This document shows, piece by piece, positions 28,458 to 40,016 of a stretch of DNA of 64,000 nucleotides; positions within the stretch are counted from its first letter, which is position 1, and each line of letters starts with the position of its first letter. Below the pieces are notes generated by a model that was not told where the DNA came from, made no database searches, and was given only the letters and a program-made list of their open reading frames with translations. The translations under genes were made by a program, and so were the position numbers. The stretch covers positions 86,939-150,938 of the forward strand of contig NZ_SNYV01000013.1 of assembly GCF_004363245.1 (NCBI RefSeq), given 5' to 3'. The stretch comes from Sphingobacterium yanglingense (lineage in GTDB: Bacteria > Bacteroidota > Bacteroidia > Sphingobacteriales > Sphingobacteriaceae).

Positions 28458-28485
28458 GAGGACAATTATTACAGTCAATAAGATT

Positions 28486-28515
28486 ACCTGAAGCGAGGAG
28501 CTTCAGGTATTCTTA
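28486..28515. terminator. Terminator hairpin after the PheRS gene
   Basis: ACCTGAAGC (28486-28494) pairs with GCTTCAGGT (28500-28508), followed by ATTCTT. The stem is the same as in the three small-RNA repeats further along, but the sigma-54 promoter sequence is absent here. Confidence 0.75.
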
Positions 28516-28569
28516 ACTAATCAATAATGTATCTTTAATCACAGATAGTAAGCTAAATACTCTTCAAAA

Positions 28570-34574: not shown

Positions 34575-34641
34575 AAAAAATACCTGAAGCGGGGAGCTTC
34601 AGGTATTTTAACTAACCAATTATTAACCTAAATTATGAATA
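34575..34641 (-). ncRNA. Predicted sigma-54-dependent small RNA, copy 1 (~67 nt)
   Basis: The minus-strand transcript would start about 34641, 12 nt past the -12 GC, and end in the T-run after the hairpin AATACCTGAAGC/GCTTCAGGTATT. A single-stranded 5' part of ~32 nt precedes the hairpin. The sequence is identical in the other copies except for A/T run length. Start and end are predicted, not measured. Confidence 0.65.
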
Positions 34642-34650
34642 CTAATCCTA

Positions 34651-34668
34651 TTGCAAAGTGCGTGCCAA
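34651..34668 (-). promoter_or_regulatory. Sigma-54 promoter of small RNA copy 1
   Basis: TTGGCACGCACTTTGCA on the minus strand equals the RpoN consensus YTGGCACG-N4-TTGCW without a mismatch. GG and GC are 10 bp apart, as sigma-54 requires. Confidence 0.75.
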
Positions 34669-34740
34669 TCCTATGTTTGCATAGTAAAACAACATAAAGG
34701 TTACAATTCTTTTATACAGACAATAAGCTATGCAGGAAAT

Positions 34741-35283
34741 TCATTCCAATCTCCTTACAATTTCCTCTTCGCTCACTTCGGTCATTGTGGATAGGTCGAT
34801 TCGATCTCCCGTATCATGAATAGAAAAATACATCCCTTTTTGAAGCTCGATGCCTTGGCTCGCTTCTTTCCAGCAATCAAAAAACCAATTTTCAAAGGCT
34901 TCGTTCTTTTCGTCAAAATAACTGTCGTATAAGCGGGATTCATCCTGATCAACATTATCATCATACCGCTTCATCGTCTTTTCGCTTTCAAAACTGTAGA
35001 TAGAATTGCGTGTGATTGTTTTCCAATCTTTCTCCGGAAATTTGCTTGGAATGGAAATATGCTCAGTATATTGACTTAAGTTTTTGTCCAGTCCATAGAA
35101 GGTTAAATCGAGTAGTTCAAAATCATATTCGAAGAGATAAACTACAATATCCTCATTTGTTCTTTTGTATTGATACACGATGCTTTTATCCATCAGAATG
35201 TCGCGTATATCGCTAATAGTTTGTTCGGATAAACGCTGCAGATCCTGTTTAAACTGCTCTAAGTATTTTTGATATTCATTCAT
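34741..35283 (-). CDS. Hypothetical protein, 180 aa
   Basis: No family recognised. Soluble, very acidic and aromatic-rich (SRLYDSYFDEKNEAFENWFF near 115-135), with no signal peptide. The N-terminal third is helical (YQKYLEQFKQDLQRLSEQ). It sits beside a SUKH-like gene and a small-RNA repeat. Possibly another orphan immunity-type protein, but there is no direct support. Confidence 0.6.
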   Translation of the reverse strand: MNEYQKYLEQFKQDLQRLSEQTISDIRDILMDKSIVYQYKRTNEDIVVYLFEYDFELLDLTFYGLDKNLSQYTEHISIPSKFPEKDWKTITRNSIYSFESEKTMKRYDDNVDQDESRLYDSYFDEKNEAFENWFFDCWKEASQGIELQKGMYFSIHDTGDRIDLSTMTEVSEEEIVRRLE

Positions 35284-35379
35284 ATTTATTTTCCTCCGAC
35301 ATTAAATCCGATTTTTATTCCTCCTCTTTATACATCAACACTAGTCGATAAGAAATGTTTATCAACAAATGTAAATAAA

Positions 35380-35416
35380 AACTACGTAGTTAAATACGTA
35401 TATTGTTATACATTTG
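35380..35416 (+). promoter_or_regulatory. Promoter and palindromic operator of the GNAT-MarR operon
   Basis: TACATTTG (35409-35416) is an exact -7 box, 25 bp before the GNAT ATG. AACTACGTAGTT (35380-35391) is a perfect 12-bp palindrome over the expected -33 region. A second TACGTA core (35395-35400) lies 12 bp on. Likely the binding site of the MarR protein in this operon. Confidence 0.6.
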
Positions 35417-35440
35417 TACGCTATTTATAATTCATTTTTT

Positions 35441-35932
35441 ATGAAACCACTAAAAATAAAGTCTATTGATAATTCTTATTCAACACAAGCAATCAATCTG
35501 ATAATAGAGATACAGCAAAATGAGTTCAGGACATCAATAACAATAAATGATCAACCAGATCTTTTCGAAATTGAAGATTACTATATGCAAAAAGGAGGAA
35601 ATTTCTGGGGTGCATTTATAGAAAATGAACTAGTGGGAACTATTGCCTTAGCAAATTTTGGAAATAGCAATGGAGCTGTCAGAAAGATGTTCGTTAAAGA
35701 ATCCTTTCGTGGCAAAGAATTAGGGATAGCTCAAGAATTGCTAAACGAACTAATTTCATTTTCTTCGGCTCATAATATTACAGATCTTTATTTAGGTACA
35801 ATCGATGTTTTCAAGGCGGCACAACGTTTTTACGAACGAAACAATTTCACAATAATCAATAAAGAAGAACTTCCTGTTTCTTTTCCATTAATGAATGCAG
35901 ATAATCTTTTCTATCATTTAAACATTAAATAA
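35441..35932 (+). CDS. GNAT family N-acetyltransferase (MarR-linked)
   Basis: 163 residues from the ATG at 35441. The TTG at 35414 lies inside the promoter box. Acetyl-CoA motif VKESFRGKELGIAQELL (about 85-101) and AAQRFYERNNFTII near the end. The MarR gene starts 2 bp after its stop. GNAT-MarR pairs are common and the two domains are fused in some bacteria, which supports a shared role in detoxification or small-molecule acetylation. Confidence 0.88.
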   Translation: MKPLKIKSIDNSYSTQAINLIIEIQQNEFRTSITINDQPDLFEIEDYYMQKGGNFWGAFIENELVGTIALANFGNSNGAVRKMFVKESFRGKELGIAQELLNELISFSSAHNITDLYLGTIDVFKAAQRFYERNNFTIINKEELPVSFPLMNADNLFYHLNIK

Positions 35933-35934
35933 AT

Positions 35935-36414
35935 ATGAATGTATTAAATCAAGCCGGGATTTTAGCTCTTTCTTCTAGAATGCACCGTTTAAGTGAACAA
36001 ATAAGAAAAGATGGAGCTCTGATTTATAAAGAATTTGACATAGATTTTGAGCTTAAATGGTTTCCTGTAATTTATACTATCTATAAAAAAGAAAACGTTA
36101 ATGTTATGGAAATTGCCAATGAAATTGGATATACTCATCCTTCTACAATTACTTTATTGAAAGAGATTGAGAATTTGAAATTAGTTGCCTGGAAAAAAGA
36201 CAGCCAAGATGAACGTAAAAAAAACTATCACTTAACAAAAGAAGGGCAGAAGTTAGTCACAAAAATGAAACCGGTGTGGGAAACGATGTCCCTTGTTCTT
36301 GGAGAAATATCCGACAATCAAAATAATCTTTTACAGGCCATTAACGAAGCTGAAAACAAATTAGTAGAACAGTCTTTCTACCAAAGGGTATTGCAACTAA
36401 AAAATGAACTTTAG
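35935..36414 (+). CDS. MarR-family transcriptional regulator
   Basis: 159 residues with a winged helix-turn-helix (VNVMEIANEIGYTHPSTITLLKEIENLKLV, about 57-86) and the wing basic patch KKDSQDERKKNYHLT. Dimerising helices flank it. It probably represses its own operon through the TACGTA palindromes upstream of the GNAT gene. Ligand unknown. Confidence 0.9.
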   Translation: MNVLNQAGILALSSRMHRLSEQIRKDGALIYKEFDIDFELKWFPVIYTIYKKENVNVMEIANEIGYTHPSTITLLKEIENLKLVAWKKDSQDERKKNYHLTKEGQKLVTKMKPVWETMSLVLGEISDNQNNLLQAINEAENKLVEQSFYQRVLQLKNEL

Positions 36415-36468
36415 TATTTACTAGCAATAAACTGAACTAAATGAGTACATTACGAAAACACATTGTTT

Positions 36469-37011
36469 ATGATGGAAGATGTTGAAAAATTAAAATACCC
36501 AATAGGCAGATTTGTAAGACCAGAAGTAATTACGGTAGTTGATCTAAAGGAGTGGATTGCAATATTAGAAGCCTTTCCTGATCTAATACAGAAGGAAGTA
36601 AAAAGTCTTTCCTATCAAGCGTTAAATAATAGGTACAGGCCAGGAGGATGGACAATCAGGCAAGTAGTACATCATTGTGCCGATAGTCATATTAATAGTT
36701 TTGTGCGATTTAAATTAGCATTAACAGAAGAAAAACCAACTATAAAGCCTTATAACGAAGCCATGTGGGCCGAATTAATAGATGCACAAGATATGCCAAT
36801 AGATAGTTCATTAGCTATTATTAAAGGAATACATCAGCGTTGGGTAGTTTTGTTAAAGAGTCTATCTATCAAAGACCTACAGAGAACGTTTATACATCCT
36901 GAAACGAAAGAAGAAATTAGTTTACAAACTAATATTGGTATTTATGCTTGGCATTGTCAACATCATCTCAATCATATTGTTAATGCAAAGAATTCTGCAT
37001 ACAGCTCATAA
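36469..37011 (+). CDS. DinB/YfiT-family putative metal-dependent hydrolase (bacillithiol transferase-like)
   Basis: About 180 residues (ATG 36469; the next codon is also ATG). The YfiT-type opening KLKYPIGRF is present. DinB-fold metal ligands are suggested by VVHHCADSHIN (about 64-74) and AWHCQHHLNHI (about 163-173). Members of this family in thiol-using bacteria transfer bacillithiol to electrophiles such as fosfomycin-like compounds. Following a GNAT-MarR pair, a detoxification role would fit. Not part of that operon with certainty (gap of ~55 bp). Confidence 0.82.
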   Translation: MMEDVEKLKYPIGRFVRPEVITVVDLKEWIAILEAFPDLIQKEVKSLSYQALNNRYRPGGWTIRQVVHHCADSHINSFVRFKLALTEEKPTIKPYNEAMWAELIDAQDMPIDSSLAIIKGIHQRWVVLLKSLSIKDLQRTFIHPETKEEISLQTNIGIYAWHCQHHLNHIVNAKNSAYSS

Positions 37012-37129
37012 AAGAGGAAGAATAGGGACTACGATGCAGCGTATCTAGGCATCTATTGTATGCTTTTTGATAATGCTAGAATTTGGGCCAATTCATTTTA
37101 AATGACTGACAGATCTAAAAGATATCAGT

Positions 37130-37717
37130 TTAAGGTTGTAGAAGAATCTTGGTCCATATATCACTTTCTTTTTGATACAGTATTCTATCGTGAAAACGGG
37201 TTTCTTTGAAAATTAAAAATTCAATCCGTATCGGAGCAATTCCAAAAGCTCCCCAATTACCTGGGCGAGGCAGTGATGTTTGAGATTCTAAATATTGCGT
37301 ATAGGAGTCATATTTTGTATTTAGAATTTCTGGATTACGAAGAAATTTTCCTTGATCACTTACTATAGAAACTATTTGACTTTCGATATTTCTTTGCTTA
37401 AAATAGGTATCAGCTATCGAATCTTCAATTCTGTGTGTTTCTCCCTGAATTCTGATTTGCACTTGGGTTTCAGGAAGCCAAAAGGTTAAAGCTGCTTTAT
37501 TGTTTTGTGCCAGTTCTTCTCCTTTCCTTGCTGATAGTGTGCCCGAAATAATAAACTGTTCGTTGGTAATTTCTTTTAGAGATACAAATCTTGAATTTGG
37601 AAAACCATCTATACCGATTGTGGAGAGACAACAAGCATAAGGCAGCTTTTGTTTTCTAGTTTCAATTTCTTGATCTAAGTAAAATTGAAATTGTGATAAG
37701 ATACTTTGAAGCGTCAT
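37130..37717 (-). CDS. Pyridoxamine 5'-phosphate oxidase-family flavoprotein
   Basis: 195 residues from the ATG at 37717 (MTLQSILSQFQFY). It shows the PNPOx fold: DGFPNSRFVSLKEI (about 43-56), SARKGEELAQNNKAALTFWLP and the C-terminal RPGNWGAFGIAPIRIEFL plus RFHDRILY, which resemble the FMN- and PLP-site segments of PdxH. A role in pyridoxal phosphate synthesis is likely, but other FMN-dependent oxidases share the fold. No vitamin B6 genes adjoin it. Confidence 0.82.
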   Translation of the reverse strand: MTLQSILSQFQFYLDQEIETRKQKLPYACCLSTIGIDGFPNSRFVSLKEITNEQFIISGTLSARKGEELAQNNKAALTFWLPETQVQIRIQGETHRIEDSIADTYFKQRNIESQIVSIVSDQGKFLRNPEILNTKYDSYTQYLESQTSLPRPGNWGAFGIAPIRIEFLIFKETRFHDRILYQKESDIWTKILLQP

Positions 37718-37859
37718 AATGGATAAAATTAGCAATAGAAATTCTATATTACAAAGGAGGTGCAGCTATAATAACTGATATAACCAATTAAACTCAGAGG
37801 GTACTGCAAATATAATCTATGTGTTGTCAGCTTTTTAAATAATGGTATTCATATTTTAC

Positions 37860-37928
37860 AAAAAAATACCTGAAGCGGGGAGCTTCAGGTATTTTTAACT
37901 AACCAATTATTAACCTAAATTATGAATA
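37860..37928 (-). ncRNA. Predicted sigma-54-dependent small RNA, copy 2 (~69 nt)
   Basis: Same transcript as copy 1 with two extra bases in the A/T runs. The hairpin spans 37867-37891 and a seven-T run ends it. It lies ~140 bp upstream of the PNPOx-family gene on the same strand, so it is terminated before that gene. Confidence 0.65.
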
Positions 37929-37937
37929 CGAATACTA

Positions 37938-37955
37938 CCGCAAAGGATGTGCCAG
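37938..37955 (-). promoter_or_regulatory. Sigma-54 promoter of small RNA copy 2
   Basis: CTGGCACATCCTTTGCG: GG-N10-GC spacing kept although the N4 spacer and flanks differ from copy 1, a pattern expected for a functional RpoN site. Confidence 0.7.
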
Positions 37956-38121
37956 TCTTATGTTGGCATAGTAAAATAACATAAAGGTTACGATTCTTTT
38001 GTACTGACAATTGCTATGCAAGAGATTCATCTCCCATTATCCTGCTGTTATAACCACTAGGTTTTCTATGGGGACCTAAGTTTTAACCGACACTAGTGTT
38101 CAGTCTATTTATAATTTTTCC

Positions 38122-38472
38122 TTATTTCTTGGAAGGCATCTTTTTGATTTCCTGAGGTTTCATCATCTGATGGATTGTACCGTTATGGTCGAGATACTGG
38201 TCTGCCTGCAACTTCACTACTTTCTTGTCTTTCATCACCACCTCGCCGTTGGGGTGTATCCAAACATCGCCAACTTTGGTTTCTTTGGTCATGTGCATCG
38301 ATTTACCATCTTTCATTTCCACTATTTTTCCATCTTTCCAGCACCAATGTTGCATGTTGTGTTCCTTTTGCACATGGTGTTCCTCTTTTTTGTGTTCCTT
38401 TTTTTGTTCTTGAGCCGAAGCACTATATCCAATCCAGGAAATTAGTGCTACTGATAAAATTAACTTTTTCAT
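38122..38472 (-). CDS. DUF6799-type secreted protein
   Basis: 116 residues from the ATG at 38472 (MKKLILSVAL), with a signal peptide ending YSASAQEQ. A His/Lys/Glu-rich linker (about 22-45) is followed by the DUF6799-like repeat of short DGK units: WKDGKIVEMKDGKSMHM, then WIHPNGEVVMKD and LDHNGTIHQM. Periplasmic or outer-membrane associated. The His-rich linker might bind metal. Function unknown. Confidence 0.78.
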   Translation of the reverse strand: MKKLILSVALISWIGYSASAQEQKKEHKKEEHHVQKEHNMQHWCWKDGKIVEMKDGKSMHMTKETKVGDVWIHPNGEVVMKDKKVVKLQADQYLDHNGTIHQMMKPQEIKKMPSKK

Positions 38473-38552
38473 TTTTAAAACACTCTTAATACCTAAAAAT
38501 GAATTTCTTAGGGATTGAATAACAAGTTTAGATAGATAAAGTTTTGGCAAGA

Positions 38553-38785
38553 TTAATTTTTTTCGTTCCTCGCTATTTTTTTGTTTTCGATCCCCTGATC
38601 TAGAAATGCGAAAGGACTTGCAGGGCTGTATTTAATCCCATCAGGGAGGTTGTCACAGAATGTGATAAGCTCACGCCATTCATTTTTGGTGAGTTGGAAC
38701 ATGAATTCCGTAGGAATTGGTTTATGAGTTATTGTCTTAATTCCGCTTTTTTCTTTTAGATAGGTTTGAAGTACGAGGAGAAGCT
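38553..38785 (-). pseudogene. ORF6N-type antirepressor remnant
   Basis: An open stretch of about 75 codons without a proper start reads ...PTEFMFQLTKNEWRELITF and ...SPFAFLDQGI before a stop. This matches the middle of ORF6N proteins (EDFMFQLT... and PYAFTEQGV). The N-terminal part is missing (a TAG lies upstream in frame) and the end breaks off early. It is probably a leftover of a mobile-element gene. A fuller ORF6N gene lies at 41730. Confidence 0.5.
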
Positions 38786-38890
38786 ACCTCTTCTTTTTGG
38801 AAAGGCACGAGCTGAAAGCTCGCACTAGCGGAAGAGTGAATGTGTGTTTTAAGAGTTTATTGATTATCTTGTGTAAAATGAAAACTATGT

Positions 38891-39466
38891 ATGCCTAATA
38901 TCTACGTTATATCCGGTTGTAATGGTGCTGGCAAAACTACTGCTAGTTATACTGTATTACCCGAAATTCTTAACTGTAAAGAGTTTGTCAATGCAGATAA
39001 TATCGCGGCAGGGATATCCCCATTTAATCCAGAGAGTGTTGCTTTATCGGCAGGACGTATTATGCTGGAGCGAATCCATGAGTTGATAAAAGAGGGAGCC
39101 GATTTTGCATTTGAGACTACCCTGTCAACAAAGAGCTATCGAAATCTTATTCTCGACGCCCAGAAGAAAGGTTATACTGTCACACTGTTATATTTTTGGT
39201 TAGATTCTCCTGCTTTGGCGATGCAACGCGTCAAAAAGCGTGTAGAGCGAGGAGGTCACCACATTCCAGATAATGTCGTTGAGCGACGGTACCATAGAGG
39301 ATTGACAAATCTATTTAATCTCTATCTTCCAATATGTGATTATTGGATGGTTTTAGATAATATGGATTTGGTTCCAGAGATTATAGCCAAACAAAACGAA
39401 TTTGGAGAATCAATTGTAAATAACGAACTTTGGTCTAGATTAAAAGCAGAATACTATGGTAAATGA
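38891..39466 (+). CDS. Zeta-toxin-like P-loop kinase
   Basis: 191 residues. Walker A GCNGAGKTT (9-17), the substrate-side motifs FVNADNIA (about 33-40) and FETTLST (about 74-80), and a basic KKRVERGGHHIP segment, matching the zeta toxin/COG4185 family. Zeta toxins phosphorylate UDP-GlcNAc and block wall synthesis. Many chromosomal relatives are not proven toxins. The small downstream gene overlaps by 11 bp and may encode its partner, an order (toxin first) opposite to classic epsilon-zeta. Confidence 0.82.
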   Translation: MPNIYVISGCNGAGKTTASYTVLPEILNCKEFVNADNIAAGISPFNPESVALSAGRIMLERIHELIKEGADFAFETTLSTKSYRNLILDAQKKGYTVTLLYFWLDSPALAMQRVKKRVERGGHHIPDNVVERRYHRGLTNLFNLYLPICDYWMVLDNMDLVPEIIAKQNEFGESIVNNELWSRLKAEYYGK

Positions 39467-39638
39467 AGATTTAAAAAATAGTAAAGCCGATTGGACTGAA
39501 AAAATTCGCGAGGGCGTACAAAAGGCACTTCGAAAGTTAGCTGAAGAAAGCGCAGCCAAAGGTGAGAGCTTGGTCGTAAAGATAGATGGTGAGATTAAGG
39601 AAGTTCCTGCTAAGGAGCTTTTAGCTACTCTTCCATAA
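39456..39638 (+). CDS. Small protein partnering the zeta-like kinase (putative antitoxin)
   Basis: 60 residues, mostly helical and charged, with a KIREGVQKALRKLAEESAAKG helix and an EVPAKELL end. Its ATG overlaps the end of the kinase gene by 11 bp, so translation is coupled. Not homologous in any obvious way to epsilon. The antitoxin role rests on size and pairing only. Confidence 0.65.
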   Translation: MVNEDLKNSKADWTEKIREGVQKALRKLAEESAAKGESLVVKIDGEIKEVPAKELLATLP

Positions 39639-39765
39639 AATAGTAATATACAAGCCTAGATGAATTCGTCTTTACAGTAATATAATTGCGTCGTAATATA
39701 AAGTCGAATCTTGTTGCCTCCTCAGCCATTTAGAGTTTAATATAGAGAAAATATAATATTACGAG

Positions 39766-39795
39766 AGCCGTTTCAGAGTTGGGACGGCTTTTTTG
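39766..39795 (+). terminator. Rho-independent terminator after the zeta-like operon
   Basis: AGCCGT pairs with ACGGCT around TTCAGAGTTGGG, then TTTTT. Nearly the same as the element at 31969. Confidence 0.85.
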
Positions 39796-39823
39796 TCTTA
39801 TTATATCTCCATCAATCTACTAT

Positions 39824-39892
39824 AAAAAAATACCTGAAGCGGGGAGCTTCAGGTATTTTTAACTAACCAATTATTAACCTAAATTATGAATA
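39824..39892 (-). ncRNA. Predicted sigma-54-dependent small RNA, copy 3 (~69 nt)
   Basis: Identical to copy 2 over the predicted transcript, ending in seven T after the hairpin. It faces the zeta-kinase terminator at 39766. Confidence 0.65.
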
Positions 39893-39901
39893 CTAGTCCT
39901 A

Positions 39902-39919
39902 TTGCAAAGTGTGTGCCAA
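39902..39919 (-). promoter_or_regulatory. Sigma-54 promoter of small RNA copy 3
   Basis: TTGGCACACACTTTGCA, one difference from the RpoN consensus in the non-critical G of CACG. GG-N10-GC spacing intact. Confidence 0.75.
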
Positions 39920-40016
39920 TCTTATGCCTGCATAGGAAAGCAACATAAAGGTTACGATTCTTTTATACAGACAATAGCTATACAAGAGATTCATCTCCTA
40001 TTATAACCGATGATTT

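Follow-up and report, generated by a model that had tools for sequence, protein, structure and literature searches.

The FopS small RNAs (sRNAs) of Bacteroides (RF04319) are 65 to 70 nucleotides (nt) long, occur in 12 to 15 copies per genome and pair at the start codon, thereby blocking the translation of SusC-type transporters, while an RRM (RNA recognition motif) protein, RbpB, binds FopS and counteracts the repression (PMC11697453). The R1 seed of FopS is common to GibS (RF04182), another Bacteroides sRNA that represses by binding translation-initiation regions. Outside this phylum, GlmY and GlmZ of enterobacteria are small RNAs under sigma-54 control with a link to the cell envelope (PMC3162934), and multicopy siblings such as LhrC of Listeria are near-identical RNAs that are encoded at several loci and have common targets (PMC4132741). 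Our analysis of a 64,000-nt stretch of the Sphingobacterium yanglingense genome (contig NZ_SNYV01000013.1, positions 86,939 to 150,938; here called the window) identified three copies of an sRNA gene that bears a likeness to each of these systems. We consider it probable that the encoded RNA belongs to a multicopy, trans-acting, FopS-like family that is partly controlled by sigma-54 and represses outer-membrane transporters.

According to the original prediction, an approximately 180-bp repeat at positions 34575, 37860 and 39824, always in one orientation, encodes on its minus strand a 67- to 69-nt transcript that starts at 34641, 37928 and 39892 behind sigma-54 promoters of the form GG-N10-GC. 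Re-reading the window reproduced the positions and the promoter letters, and sequence comparison agreed that the three copies have in common a segment that closes with a hairpin and T-run and varies only in the length of its A/T runs. The first transcribed base is likely the G of GTATT, within 1 to 2 nt of the earlier estimate, and the copies extend from this G to the end of the T-run over 68, 70 and 70 nt, respectively (Table 1). When folded alone, a single copy forms an unpaired 5′ part and one terminator hairpin (−20.2 kcal/mol). Conservation, which had been thought to end at the −24 element, continues into a further block upstream that includes GTAACCTTTATGTTR 67 nt before the seed. A plus-strand reading of the repeat as a leader with a small open reading frame (ORF; MNTDIT...) was rejected, as these ORFs vary in length and sequence and are unconserved.

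Table 1. Predicted features of the sRNA copies in the window (positions are those of the window)
Feature	Position	Strand	Remarks
sRNA copy 1	34575..34642	minus	~68 nt; probable start G34642, T-run 34580-34575; covariance-model match C2:121513-121583
Copy 1 invariant seed CATAATTTAGGTTAATAATTGGTTAG	34612..34637	minus	17 invariant columns across 30 diverse copies
Copy 1 terminator hairpin, UCCCC loop	34580..34606	minus	compensatory changes at 9/9 modelled pairs (family-wide)
Copy 1 predicted sigma-54 promoter TTGGCACGCACTTTGCA	34652..34668	minus	consensus match
Copy 1 upstream direct-repeat block GTAACCTTTATGTTG, putative activator site	34690..34704	minus	like repeat recurs 67-70 nt before seed
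sRNA copy 2	37860..37929	minus	~70 nt
Copy 2 seed	37899..37924	minus	
Copy 2 predicted sigma-54 promoter CTGGCACATCCTTTGCG	37939..37955	minus	consensus match
Copy 2 upstream direct-repeat block	37977..37991	minus	
sRNA copy 3	39824..39893	minus	~70 nt
Copy 3 seed	39863..39888	minus	
Copy 3 predicted sigma-54 promoter TTGGCACACACTTTGCA	39903..39919	minus	consensus match
Copy 3 upstream direct-repeat block	39941..39955	minus	
Degenerate fourth copy	28479..28551	minus	E=0.03; terminator hairpin retained (CUGAAGCUCCUCGCUUCAG); 5′ half of seed gone; no sigma-54 box/promoter

A covariance-model search, which had been suggested as a check on the original prediction, was run with a model trained on 30 diverse copies. 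It found the RNA family-wide, in 152 of the 201 sampled genomes and 21 of the 25 genera of the Sphingobacteriaceae, and raised the count in the genome of S. yanglingense (5.49 Mb) from the three copies first noticed to 36 at E<1e-3 and 39 at E≤0.1. A DNA search yielded matches in all 36 sampled genomes of the genus, and the exact 26-nt seed is present in named genomes of Sphingobacterium, Mucilaginibacter, Parapedobacter and Olivibacter; beyond the family, covariance-model matches were few and weak. Across the 30 diverse copies, all nine modelled pairs of the terminator stem carry changes on both sides. Double-change cells numbered 52, compared with 13.4 in shuffles, and the covariation score of 0.613 fell to 0.194 after shuffling and to at most 0.197 when the partner was slid. 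The same copies show next to no variation in the 5′ region CATAATTTAGGTTWATAATTGGTTAG, whereas the hairpin stem varies freely yet stays paired; its loop is C-rich throughout (UCCCC, or GCCCAUC in other subfamilies). A covarying stem next to a nearly frozen seed is what one expects of an sRNA that acts by base pairing and ends in an intrinsic terminator, rather than of an element acting at the DNA level. Judged by sequence comparison, this is a real, family-wide and high-copy sRNA family. Searching Rfam at the gathering threshold gave no match in the window, and a permissive Rfam search returned chance-level matches only. In the literature that we searched, no paper described an RNA of this kind from Sphingobacterium.

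Within the window, the exact motif TGGCAY-N5-TTGC occurs at three sites, where 0.18 would be expected from mononucleotide shuffles, and all three are the sRNA copies, each of which matches the sigma-54 consensus at 10 of 10 bases (TGGCAC-N5-TTGC at −24/−12). Among 209 distinct copies, which come from related species and are not independent, 28 carry at least 9 of the 10 consensus bases, whereas shuffles would give 0.3; in 27 of the 28, the motif precedes the seed CAT by 13 to 16 nt. Such a fixed distance, combined with a diverged spacer, makes the sigma-54 motif hard to account for otherwise. A single full RpoN is encoded in the genome, as are four bona fide enhancer-binding proteins, of which three have receiver domains. 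Covariation, the position-locked GG-N10-GC element in many species and this machinery together strongly support the predicted minus-strand sRNA with sigma-54 promoters, and sigma-54 control of the window copies is well supported by sequence. We also counted strong sigma-54 cores over 2.4 Mb of the 5.49 Mb genome (44%) and found ten, seven of them outside ORFs. This sRNA lies behind four of the seven and is therefore the largest single group among them.

Other copies are preceded by different elements. In 38 copies, a Bacteroidota housekeeping box, TAnnTTTG, recognized by sigma-ABfr, lies 6 nt before the seed, and among the 30 S. yanglingense copies examined, 13 are sigma-54-like, 10 have TAnnTTTG and 7 have neither. 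Copies in a third class lie directly behind a tRNA, in a Mucilaginibacter group and at C1:611056 in S. yanglingense. A tRNA-like gene is found directly 5′ of the copies at loci L044 (C1:611056-611125 of S. yanglingense), L183, L211, L216, L226, L232, L235 and L259, and it is tRNA-Ser-like in Mucilaginibacter. Since no promoter was seen between the tRNA-like gene and the RNA, the tRNA-adjoining copies may be released by tRNA processing. In addition, a GTWA-N7-GTWA direct repeat, of which GTAACCTTTATGTTR is the window form, occurs approximately 67 to 70 nt before the seed in 37 copies of all classes (about 0.3 in shuffles), including part of the sigma-54 copies and part of the unclassified ones; it is possibly a shared activator site. 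To judge by their motifs and spacing, the promoters of the family are modular and position-locked. Many homologues thus keep the RNA but have a sigma-ABfr box or a tRNA upstream in place of GG-N10-GC. They weaken the view that sigma-54 defines the RNA, which given several promoter classes it does not, and strengthen the view that the RNA is real; the sigma-54 promoters predicted for the window copies stand. Multicopy sibling sRNAs such as LhrC have fewer copies than the Sphingobacteriaceae sRNA, whose siblings furthermore differ from them in having promoters of different sigma classes.

Reverse-complementing the seed gives AACTAACCAATTATTAACCTAAATTATGAA, a sequence similar to translation starts in this genus, and the CAU of the seed is complementary to AUG. 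We compared predicted pairing with the leaders of SusC-type and other genes at heuristically assigned start codons. For the 39-nt seed region, 42 SusC-type leaders had a mean energy of −13.5 kcal/mol, compared with −10.6 kcal/mol for other genes (p=1.4e-7); 12 mononucleotide shuffles gave p values no lower than 0.006, and there the shift ran in the opposite direction. Allowing three candidate starts per gene gave p=3e-7 (58 SusC genes versus 350 others), and a held-out part of the genome with 34 SusC genes gave p=0.0017; in both tests, none of 60 dinucleotide shuffles did as well. Energies at or below −16 kcal/mol were reached by 34% of the SusC leaders and by 8.7% of those of other genes, and pairing peaked at the AUG. 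A genome search allowing three mismatches for mRNA leaders near-identical to the seed complement returned only the sRNA copies, and an unrestricted duplex scan covering approximately 82% of the planned windows gave mostly chance matches in coding regions, with weak enrichment at start sites. From these data we infer that the RNA represses outer-membrane transporters, the function best supported here.

In the mechanism that we favor, each gene would give rise to an RNA of approximately 68 to 70 nt, in which the seed at the 5′ end (UUCAUAAUUUAGGUUAAUAAUUGGUUAGUU) is single-stranded and precedes an intrinsic terminator whose loop is C-rich. With the aid of an enhancer-binding protein, RNA polymerase carrying sigma-54 would transcribe the window copies; other copies would be expressed from a housekeeping sigma-ABfr promoter or by virtue of their position behind tRNAs, so that several signals could feed one RNA. 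The seed would then pair with translation-initiation regions, preferentially those of SusC-type TonB-dependent transporters and probably of some other exported proteins, and block translation as FopS does in Bacteroides. This reading takes the RNA architecture, the covariation, the promoter classes with their spacing and the biased complementarity directly from the sequence, and extends them to transcription, the start site, sigma-54 dependence in vivo and repression of SusC mRNAs. Several points weigh against it. The energetic preference for SusC genes is moderate (2.4 kcal/mol, and 1.7 in the hold-out), was obtained in silico and depends on the heuristic start codons; a replicate in other species, with 3 SusC genes only, was not significant; and the best single site lies not in a SusC gene but in that of an S9 peptidase of the prolyl-oligopeptidase family (C1:780870-782948, L126:870-2948; −28.1 kcal/mol). 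Moreover, about half of the S. yanglingense copies examined lack a sigma-54 motif, and no RRM_1 protein was found in this genome by a search that detects one in the control, Bacteroides ihuae. No better complementary site was found than the start of the S9 peptidase gene, GAACTAACTATAACTTACCTAAATTATGAAA, and this gene is a strong single candidate target in its own right.

The high copy number, the clusters in one orientation, the near-identical ~180-bp unit at four places and the degenerate copy within the window might suggest a mobile DNA element, such as a miniature inverted-repeat transposable element (MITE), a repetitive extragenic palindrome (REP)-like sequence or a recombination site, whose hairpin would not be the terminator of a functional RNA. 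We regard this as extremely improbable, given that the stem shows covariation next to a seed that is frozen and kept across genera, that T-runs follow on the same strand, that promoters of two sigma classes are position-locked before the seed, and that promoter and RNA recombine as modules. Beyond copy number, nothing spoke for a MITE or for an integron-like attC site. It is also very unlikely, though less so, that the sRNA is real while sigma-ABfr is the factor that reads the window copies, through the CTTTGC part of a fortuitous sigma-54 match. Other paralogues do use sigma-ABfr, and TTTG is contained in the −12 element; however, it lies approximately 16 nt before the seed in the window copies, compared with 6 nt in the sigma-ABfr copies, the TA of TAnnTTTG is missing, and the −24 GG is conserved next to a diverged spacer in many species. 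A greater, if still low, probability attaches to the RNA acting mainly as a sponge that titrates an RNA-binding protein or another RNA instead of pairing with SusC mRNAs. Such a role would suit the high dosage, the conserved C-rich loop and a seed much longer than is usually needed, but it leaves aside that the seed, in two gene sets, preferred the translation starts of SusC genes more strongly than its dinucleotide shuffles did, and also the precedent of FopS (PMC11697453).

The alternative that deserves most weight, although we rate it somewhat below an even chance, is that the RNA is a true FopS orthologue and that one ancient Bacteroidota sRNA family was split between Bacteroidales and Sphingobacteriales. 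The RNAs agree in length, in the 5′ UUCAU..UUAGRUU..GGUUA core, whose UUCAU is complementary to the start-codon region, in the intrinsic terminator and in high copy number, and SusC-type transporter mRNAs are targets proven for FopS and predicted here. For one locus from a third family (G376, L180/L335), two models gave a match, ours with E=1e-4 and RF04319 with 34.4 bits and E=0.004, and two members of our family, at 20 to 23 bits, were among the four best RF04319 matches in S. yanglingense. However, none of the matches in this genome reached the 56-bit cutoff, the best (28.7 bits) being at an unrelated locus. The seed matches the R1′ seed of FopS only in part, marginally in direct alignment (p 0.03 to 0.08) and better via an intermediate (p 0.0004 to 0.008), and an equal resemblance could arise if the two RNAs had converged on a common seed directed against start codons. 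FopS genes also use sigma-ABfr promoters, which about one-third of the S. yanglingense copies examined have and the window copies lack, while many Sphingobacteriaceae copies have sigma-54 promoters or lie behind tRNAs; and the partner that binds FopS, RbpB, has no RRM_1-matching counterpart here. Hence, the earlier statement that no described RNA fits holds insofar as there is no formal RF04319 match over the cutoff, but it overlooked FopS as a close functional and structural parallel (PMC11697453). The evidence speaks more for an RNA that functions as FopS does than for an RNA that is FopS; orthology is possible but unproven. GibS is more distant, being a single-copy, longer RNA (142-position model) with a second seed, R2, and RF04182 had no match here; GlmY and GlmZ are unrelated in sequence, proteobacterial, present in two copies and directed at glmS. 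Two side observations concern related searches: L333 of another Bacteroidota family contains, at ~1460 to 1565, a weak FopS-like RNA (36.9 bits) with a sigma-54-like box, TTTGGCACGCTAATTGTAT, ~20 to 35 nt upstream, and L181 has two Flavo-1 (RF01705) matches just below the cutoff (199-250 and 2326-2397) that flank a weak match of the model built here.

Bacteroidota possess dozens to hundreds of SusC-type importers each, and to our knowledge little is known about the role of sigma-54 in this phylum. An sRNA that is family-wide and high in copy number, has exchangeable promoters and is directed at the start codons of SusC genes would connect these importers with sigma-54, and it would carry FopS-type control past gut Bacteroides to environmental Sphingobacteriaceae without an RRM partner. 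More speculatively, and we hold this to be rather doubtful, the sRNA family might be a main output of sigma-54 in Sphingobacterium, dozens of interchangeable RNA genes forming a genome-wide off-switch for importers to which paralogues under other promoters give other signals access; the RRM protein by which FopS is managed in Bacteroides would play no part. The sRNA family offers a directly testable system. Finally, copy 3 adjoins a gene for a zeta-toxin-like kinase, behind which lies a short ORF (38891-39640), an arrangement that resembles a small module of the toxin-antitoxin type.

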